Positions 2,188 through 3,718 of a stretch of 64,000 nucleotides of DNA are shown piece by piece; positions within the stretch are counted from its first letter, which is position 1; the number at the start of each line of letters is the position of its first letter. The stretch is from assembly GCF_003149085.1 (NCBI RefSeq), contig NZ_QGDT01000011.1, positions 124,001 to 188,000 of the forward strand, in the 5' to 3' direction. The notes under the pieces are model-generated. The model was not told the origin of the DNA, ran no database searches, and worked only from the letters and a program-made list of their open reading frames with translations. The position numbers and the translations under genes are program-made. This DNA is from Dyadobacter jejuensis. GTDB taxonomy: Bacteria > Bacteroidota > Bacteroidia > Cytophagales > Spirosomataceae.

Positions 2188-2218
2188 TTTGTTTGAAATA
2201 AAACTTATGCTTTCTTTG
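2188..2218 (+). promoter_or_regulatory. Candidate promoter for the leu leader/leuA transcript
   Basis: A TTTG at 2188-2191 is followed by 19 bp and then TTTCTTTG at 2211-2218. The Bacteroidota consensus is TTTG, about 19-21 bp, then TAnnTTTG; the -7 box here has one mismatch (A to T). Transcription would start near 2225, about 40 nt before the leader peptide start at 2264. The position is right for the attenuator, but the promoter is inferred only. Confidence 0.5.
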
Positions 2219-2263: not shown

Positions 2264-2314
2264 ATGAATTATCCCGAATCTCAGCAGACTGATCTCCTCC
2301 TAAATCTTTTTTAA
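2264..2314 (+). CDS. leuL: Leucine leader peptide (16 residues, MNYPESQQTDLLLNLF)
   Basis: ATG at 2264, stop TAA at 2312-2314. Four of the last six codons before the stop are for leucine: CTC CTC CTA, AAT, CTT, TTT. It lies between leuB and leuA, directly upstream of an RNA that can fold as either antiterminator or terminator. This is the arrangement of classic amino-acid leader peptides: shortage of charged tRNA-Leu stalls the ribosome at 2294-2308, before the antiterminator arm at 2316. The peptide itself is not expected to have another function. No clear Shine-Dalgarno is visible, as is usual in this phylum. Confidence 0.8.
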   Translation: MNYPESQQTDLLLNLF

Positions 2315-2375
2315 GAAGAGAAAGGCCTTGTGATGATTCGACCCAAAACCCTTTCTCTTAATAGGAAAGGGTTTT
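2306..2375 (+). promoter_or_regulatory. Ribosome-dependent leucine attenuator (protector, antiterminator, terminator)
   Basis: The terminator is a perfect 11-bp stem, AAAACCCTTTC (2345-2355) with GAAAGGGTTTT (2365-2375), followed by a T-rich tail. The antiterminator is a perfect 10-bp pairing of AAGAGAAAGG (2316-2325) with CCTTTCTCTT (2350-2359), which shares 2350-2355 with the terminator, so only one can form. A weaker protector pairing, CTTTTTT (2306-2312) with GAGAAAG (2318-2324), would hide the antiterminator arm when there is no translation. A ribosome at the stop codon (2312-2314) would cover 2316-2325 and allow termination. One stalled at the first Leu codons would leave it free. The regulated gene is leuA at 2434. 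Confidence 0.8.
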
Positions 2376-2433
2376 ATATTGCCTGATAAATTTCGTAAAT
2401 TAGTTATCCATTACATATTCACCATACCCAGCA

Positions 2434-3588
2434 ATGAGTCAGAGAGTTCAAATCTTCGATACCACCTTAAGAGATGGCGAGCAGGTGCCCGGCAGCCAGT
2501 TAACCACCGATGAAAAAATCGTTGTAGCCCGGCAACTCGAAAAGCTGGGTGTTGACGTGATCGAGGCCGGTTTCCCGGTATCGAGCCCTGGTGACTTCCG
2601 CTCGGTGGTCGAAATTTCCAAAGCCGTTCGCGAACCCATTATCTGTGCGTTGTCCAGAGCCGTAACAGGCGACATCGACGCCGCAGCCGATGCCTTGCAA
2701 TACGCACAAAGAGGCCGTATCCATACGGGCATAGGCTCCTCGGATATTCACATACAGCACAAGTTCAACACCACCCGAGAAAAGATCCTTGAACGTGCCG
2801 TTGCTGCTACCAAATATGCCAAAAGCAAGGTAGAAGACGTGGAGTTCTATTGTGAAGATGCCGGCCGTGCCGATTTGGTATTCCTAGCCCAATTGGTAGA
2901 AGCCGTTATTGGAGCCGGGGCCACGGTGGTCAATATCCCCGATACGACGGGCTATTGCTTGCCCGATGAGTACGGTGGGAAGATTAAATATATCTTCGAA
3001 AATGTAAGCAATATCCATAAAGCCATTATCTCCATCCACTGCCATAACGACTTAGGACTAGCCACTGCCAACTCCATAGCGGGTATCAGCCAGGGAGCCC
3101 GCCAAGTAGAGGTTACCCTCAACGGCATCGGCGAGCGTGCCGGCAACACCTCTTTAGAAGAAGTGGTGATGGCCCTTAAGGTGCATCCCGAACTAGGATT
3201 GGAAACGGGCGTAAACACCCAAGAGATATTCCCTACCAGCCAGCTGGTATCCAAAATGATGCGTATGCCCGTACAGGCCAATAAGGCTATCGTTGGGCGC
3301 AACGCCTTCGCCCATTCGTCGGGAATACACCAAGATGGCTTCCTAAAGCATAATCTTAATTATGAGATCATGAACCCTCAGGACGTGGGTGTCGACAAAT
3401 CGGACATCGTACTGACGGCCCGCAGCGGTCGCCATGCCCTGAAACACCGTCTGGAGCTATTGGGCTTTTCTTATGAAAAACAGGCTGTAGACGAGCTATA
3501 TGCAAGGTTCTTAGAGGTAGCCGATATCAAAAAAGAAGTGAACGACGCCGACCTAGTAGACCTTTCAAAAGCCTATGCCGCCGTTTAA
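2434..3588 (+). CDS. leuA: 2-isopropylmalate synthase, short form without regulatory domain
   Basis: 384 residues. It commits 2-ketoisovalerate and acetyl-CoA to leucine synthesis. DTTLRDGEQ (9-17), HCHND (202-206) and GIGERAGN (231-238) give the DRE-TIM metallolyase core with the metal-binding histidines. The protein stops about 130 residues short of the usual 510-520, and no C-terminal leucine-binding domain is visible. This suggests that feedback by leucine is weak or absent, leaving the upstream attenuator as the main control; that part is inference. A hairpin terminator follows at 3677. Confidence 0.93.
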
Positions 3589-3676
3589 ATAGAACAGGAT
3601 AACCTCCTGAAAATGAATTTGATCTTTTGGATATTATTTTGTATCATTACATATTCAATAACATCCATCAGATTAC

Positions 3677-3711
3677 AAAAAGCCCTCGGTGATTCTGACT
3701 AAGGGCTTTTT
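3677..3711. terminator. Bidirectional terminator between leuA and purU
   Basis: AAAAAGCCCT (3677-3686) pairs with AGGGCTTTTT (3702-3711) over a 15-nt loop. A T-run follows on the + strand and the matching A-run precedes it. It sits between the convergent leuA and purU and could end both transcripts. Confidence 0.8.
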
Positions 3712-3718
3712 TTTGTGC

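Follow-up and report, generated by a model that had tools for sequence, protein, structure and literature searches.

A probable leucine attenuator upstream of a short leuA gene in Dyadobacter

The gap between leuB and leuA in Dyadobacter contains a leader that, judged from its sequence and at a rough probability of 0.87, is a classical ribosome-mediated leucine transcription attenuator, and this leader with its hairpins is predicted, very probably, to turn leuA off when leucine is plentiful. What can be seen directly is the leader with its excess of Leu, a pair of exclusive helices conserved in relatives, and where the stop codon lies, and from these we infer ribosome stalling, termination and the response to leucine. 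The window analyzed is a 64-kb stretch (C11:124001–188000) of a 5.76-Mb genome of the Spirosomataceae, for which the nearest named relative is D. tibetensis (95% identity of the short LeuA); positions are those of the window unless a contig or locus is named.

The leuA leader and the genes around it

The leader peptide, MNYPESQQTDLLLNLF, is encoded on the forward strand at 2264–2314, running from an ATG at 2264 through 16 codons to a TAA stop at 2312–2314, and codons 11–16 are CTC CTC CTA AAT CTT TTT, with the presumed regulatory Leu codons at 11–13 and 15. The 5′ arm of the antiterminator (AAGAGAAAGG, 2316–2325, forward strand) begins at the second base past the stop codon and pairs at ten of ten positions with a 3′ arm that is kept in relatives (CCTTTCTCTT, 2350–2359); the duplex has a predicted energy of −12.6 kcal/mol (z −3.5), and none of 200 shuffles was as good. 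The intrinsic terminator (2345–2380, forward strand, −14.2 kcal/mol) pairs AAAACCCTTTC at 2345–2355 with GAAAGGGTTTT at 2365–2375 at all eleven positions, followed by ATATT. Bases 2350–2355 belong to both the 3′ arm of the antiterminator and the 5′ arm of the terminator, and the two helices are thus mutually exclusive. The initial annotation had described a 16-codon leader with four Leu codons among its last six sense codons, perfect 10-bp antiterminator and 11-bp terminator helices with bases in common, and an antiterminator arm starting 2 nt after the stop, and direct reading bears out each of these. Upstream is a putative Bacteroidota-type promoter (2188–2218, forward strand) resembling TTTG / TAnnTTTG, with TTTG at 2188–2191 separated by 19 nt from TTTCTTTG at 2211–2218; a TTTGCAG block is also present at this position in Dyadobacter relatives.

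Transcription would start from this promoter between leuB and leuA. With charged Leu-tRNA available, a ribosome would finish the 16 codons and, positioned at the stop codon, would cover the antiterminator arm 2 nt downstream, such that the terminator could form and leuA would not be transcribed. A shortage of Leu-tRNA would make the ribosome stall at CUC CUC CUA or at CUU, upstream of the stop, leaving the arm exposed to capture 2350–2359, which would block the terminator and allow transcription of leuA. An operator-like palindrome ahead of the leader (see below) probably adds a second layer at the level of DNA.

The gene under this predicted control (2434–3588, forward strand) encodes a short 2-isopropylmalate synthase of 384 residues, which scores 601.9 bits against NF002086 (above the cut-off of 532), contains domains PF00682 and PF22617, and belongs to the cognate leucine pathway. 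It closes a cluster that starts with ilvD, ilvB, ilvN, ilvC and ilvA and continues through an AraC-type regulator to leuC, leuD, a long paralogue of LeuA, leuB and finally the short leuA. Inserted ahead of leuC, after ilvA and the AraC-type regulator and in reverse orientation, is a pair of AbiEii toxin-like and AbiEi antitoxin-like genes (L132:8129–9750). The long paralogue has the citramalate synthase CimA as its best match (676 bits, below the model cut-off of 950) and contains the LeuA allosteric domain PF08502, which a domain search did not find in the short LeuA. The lack of this domain from the short enzyme raises the possibility that transcriptional control may replace its feedback inhibition. 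A short inverted repeat 3′ of leuA (AAAGCCCT and AGGGCTTTTTTTT, within 3675–3715) is probably the leuA terminator, in which case leuA would form its own transcription unit.

The whole leader RNA has a predicted folding energy of −35.3 kcal/mol (z −4.0). We also scanned with a detector that requires a terminator, a mini-ORF ending just upstream of it with at least four Leu codons among its last ten, and, close to the leader stop, an antiterminator with an energy of at most −10 kcal/mol. Over both strands of the window the leuA leader is the sole match, and there is none in 470 dinucleotide-shuffled 64-kb strands. A reading in which the hairpin serves only as intrinsic terminator to a leuC-leuD-cimA-leuB unit, with the mini-ORF and antiterminator arm present by coincidence, draws on the strength of the terminator, its position ~185 nt downstream of leuB, and the strong conservation of its stem. 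It is nonetheless very improbable, as the coincidental combination is missing from the shuffled strands, the stretch from leuB to the leader holds promoter- and operator-like elements, the hairpin is only 58 nt upstream of leuA, and the Leu-rich ORF ending at an antiterminator arm is seen again in many distinct loci, as described in the next section.

Leaders of relatives at leuA and ilvD

Among the leuA upstream regions gathered from 106 distinct loci, 74 have a mini-ORF ending just before a terminator. Almost all of these are in Spirosomataceae genera (e.g. Dyadobacter, Telluribacter, Rhabdobacter, Runella, Spirosoma and Rudanella), and at least two (L126 and L128) are from outside the family. 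Complementarity of the antiterminator to the terminator arm has a mean z of −2.7 and reaches p < 0.05 against shuffles for 56 of the 74; in a few Spirosoma-type leaders it is no better than shuffles. Counted from the first base of the stop, the antiterminator arm begins at a median distance of 5 nt. In the 64 distinct leaders, Leu accounts for 28.5% of residues in frame and for 9.7 and 6.8% in the other frames, compared with ~10% in proteins of the window, and 61 of the 64 peptides contain at least three Leu residues; in the rare cases with several candidate ORFs, the choice of leader was biased to those rich in Leu, Ile and Val. UUA and UUG make up 26 of the 270 Leu codons in the leaders (10%), as against 35% in genes of the window.

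The initial annotation had proposed conserved Leu codons and covarying stems in relatives as a check, and both are seen: Leu-rich leaders are kept as the peptide sequences diverge, and the stems retain their core pairs with some compensatory changes. RNAalifold run on an unguided MAFFT alignment recovers only five pairs, because the antiterminator arm slides in the alignment, and pairs were instead counted by register over 39 non-redundant sequences. By this count the core pairs of the antiterminator are kept in 34–39 of the 39 and those of the terminator in 38–39. Position +1 of the antiterminator is paired in every sequence, as A-U in 20, G-U in 8 and G-C in 11, and positions −8 and −7 of the terminator are variously A-U, G-U, G-C, C-G and U-A. 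The stem core CCCTTTC is almost invariant across the leuA relatives, so covariation is modest and by itself constitutes modest evidence.

A second attenuator of the same layout is found in the same cluster 17 kb upstream of leuA, at ilvD (L135:1538–1640, corresponding to C11:109686–109788; the element overall spans C11:109649–109800). Its leader (L135:1538–1582) encodes MFKIIPLPVVTVTH, rich in Ile, Val and Leu, and one example from a relative is MKFILIVPVLILVTR. The antiterminator and terminator are formed from CCTCACTC and GAGTGAGG, and the stem sequence is unrelated to that of leuA. Thirty ilvD loci have the matching layout, which Dyadobacter and Runella share with further genera of the family, with a median distance of 0 nt between the stop codon's first base and the antiterminator arm and with Leu, Ile and Val each contributing ~18% of leader residues. 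The ratio of Leu to Ile plus Val differs between the leuA and ilvD leader sets with a Fisher p of 1.4e-20, a value that ignores kinship and overstates the case since related sequences are not independent; the difference also stands between genera. A different stem combined with Ile/Val/Leu leaders argues for amino-acid-specific stalling of the ribosome, and two unrelated RNAs that each carry codons for the end products of the gene downstream would be hard to explain by anything other than ribosome-mediated attenuation.

The initial annotation also listed a plausible protector pairing in the leuA leader, and this is not confirmed: the pairing is no better than in shuffled sequences, either here (z 0.0) or over 68 relatives (mean z −0.07), a result compatible with the presence as well as the absence of a helix. 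At ilvD, the relatives have a protector hairpin in excess over shuffles (mean z −1.6). This (1:2) helix is common in the enterobacterial model and unnecessary for Leu-dependent switching, and we took it as optional. The RNA-family search that had been proposed did not recognize the leader either: no Rfam model reaches its gathering threshold in the window, relaxing the cut-off to E = 10 adds matches at chance level alone, with T-box and amino-acid leader families not among them, and eight related loci gave no leader matches. Could the leader RNA sense leucine without being translated, as a riboswitch, a T-box or a protein-bound LEU element of the kind proposed for Actinobacteria? The unsupported protector helix at leuA is compatible with this, as is the similar, attenuator-like leuA leader of Streptomyces coelicolor, which when mutated departed from the classical model (PMC1262725). 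The Rfam result counts against it, as does a leader frame that is conserved in amino-acid composition and not in sequence and that turns to Ile, Val and Leu at ilvD, and we regard translation-free sensing as highly unlikely.

A comparable leader is missing from 38 of 40 leuA upstream regions of taxa that lie outside the family and share its order, class or phylum, and the remaining two, both from one family, have Ile/Leu-rich leaders. In these two loci of another family of the class (L255 and L256), the leuA leaders begin MNQAFIHILLCGIIILL and MFIHILLSGIIILL and are followed by a terminator; a simple scan of the two did not find an antiterminator. In Larkinella, Fibrisoma and Chitinophaga, leuA directly follows leuB, there is no promoter in the gap, and the attenuator is absent. 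A departure of another type is seen in Dyadobacter arcticus DSM 102865 (L064): ~200 nt ahead of leuA the Leu codons are still followed by antiterminator and terminator, and there is neither the palindrome nor an in-frame ATG before the Leu codons. A deletion has apparently removed the palindrome together with the leader start, and this strain is predicted to be a natural variant that lacks leucine control. A pattern search for His leaders (CAYCAYCAYCAY) gave 58 matches, which is not above the control.

A palindrome shared by leuA and ilvD

Between the promoter and the leader start of leuA is a perfect 12-bp palindrome, GCGAAATTTCGC (2238–2249), a putative operator. A search of the genome finds exactly two copies, this one and another at ilvD (L135:1501–1512), likewise placed after the promoter and ahead of the leader, compared with ~0.3 expected by chance by our own estimate. 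The more general form GCGW6CGC is present upstream of 83 of 106 leuA and 43 of 52 ilvD genes and occurs once in the whole 64-kb window. It is also found at 11 leuA and 19 ilvD loci without a detected attenuator, and this, with its rarity in the window, suggests that it is probably a DNA operator independent of the attenuators. We considered whether it might act as an RNA hairpin; its GCG and CGC ends are fixed and do not covary, which speaks against this. The palindrome is probably an operator for a regulator of branched-chain amino acid genes, as a candidate assignment from its placement.

Two candidate binding proteins were rejected. One is an XRE-family (ScfR/RamB-like) regulator, for which there is no palindrome upstream of the homologue in the two Dyadobacter loci that were read in the right orientation for this check (L217 and L220). 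The other is the AraC/ExsA_N-type regulator of the cluster, which is conserved in three Dyadobacter and has no link to the palindrome. Other genera of the family have the palindrome ahead of an XRE-type (ScfR/RamB-like) regulator gene (L167:2535–2546 and L177:1957–2103), in the first case between that gene and malate synthase, which suggests a wider or different palindrome regulon in the L167 genus. Spirosoma leuA has a second palindrome, GCGTATTTACGC, 5 bp upstream of GCGAAATTTCGC.

The presence of GCGW6CGC at loci without a detected attenuator makes it the more widespread element, and a regulator bound to it could be the main control, with the attenuator a minor or decayed fine-tuner. We consider this unlikely, as the anatomy of the attenuator is clearly constrained across genera and both layers can work jointly, as in the established pair of CodY and a Leu-rich attenuator in the ilv leader at ilvD of Staphylococcus aureus (PMC5794164). 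A fuller proposal, to which we give roughly even odds, is a two-layer circuit in the Spirosomataceae with one repressor acting on GCGAAATTTCGC at the ilvD and leuA promoters only, and with each gene having an attenuator of its own (Ile/Val/Leu and Leu, respectively), that of leuA replacing the allosteric domain.

Known attenuators and the meaning of the leuA leader

The enterobacterial leu attenuator (leuL; Leu_leader in Rfam) precedes leuA and consists of a short Leu-rich leader, a stop codon beside the antiterminator arm, and mutually exclusive antiterminator and terminator helices. The Dyadobacter leader has the same parts and layout and also precedes leuA, but differs in having neither a match to a covariance model nor a supported protector helix, and in controlling a lone short leuA instead of a leuABCD operon. 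The ilvD sister resembles the enterobacterial multivalent attenuators of the ilvGMEDA or ilvB type in its Ile, Val and Leu codons and in the protector hairpin supported in its relatives, whereas the leuA element, in the same cluster and 17 kb downstream of ilvD, has predicted Leu-only sensing. The mechanism and its parts are already known from classical attenuation; what may be new is the pairing of two attenuators with one shared operator-like site. Lopatovskaya et al. in 2010 reportedly made a comparative study of attenuation across bacteria, which may contain an earlier prediction of this element; we found no comparative alignment of a Bacteroidota leucine attenuator in the literature searched.

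The S. aureus ilv leader is alike in combining a cis-acting Leu attenuator with a trans-acting DNA-binding layer (here putative) at branched-chain genes, and unlike in that S. aureus has the pair at ilvD and relies on CodY, and here leuA has an attenuator of its own, with the putative operator GCGAAATTTCGC for the trans-acting layer. Within the Bacteroidota, transcript maps have prompted suggestions of leader-peptide attenuation, in Flavobacterium psychrophilum (PMC9723704) ahead of operons for amino-acid biosynthesis and in Bacteroides thetaiotaomicron (PMC7366714) for some of the 5′ UTRs that bear sORFs; the portions of these two reports that we draw on describe neither a leuA nor an ilvD element.

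The comparisons presented here are solid evidence of classical leucine attenuation in the Bacteroidota, a phylum for which it has so far been little described and was suggested from transcript maps. Two attenuators of differing amino-acid specificity, joined by a common palindrome in one cluster, constitute a natural pair for tests of codon specificity. If the reading is true, leucine control of a short LeuA that lacks the allosteric domain works at the level of RNA.
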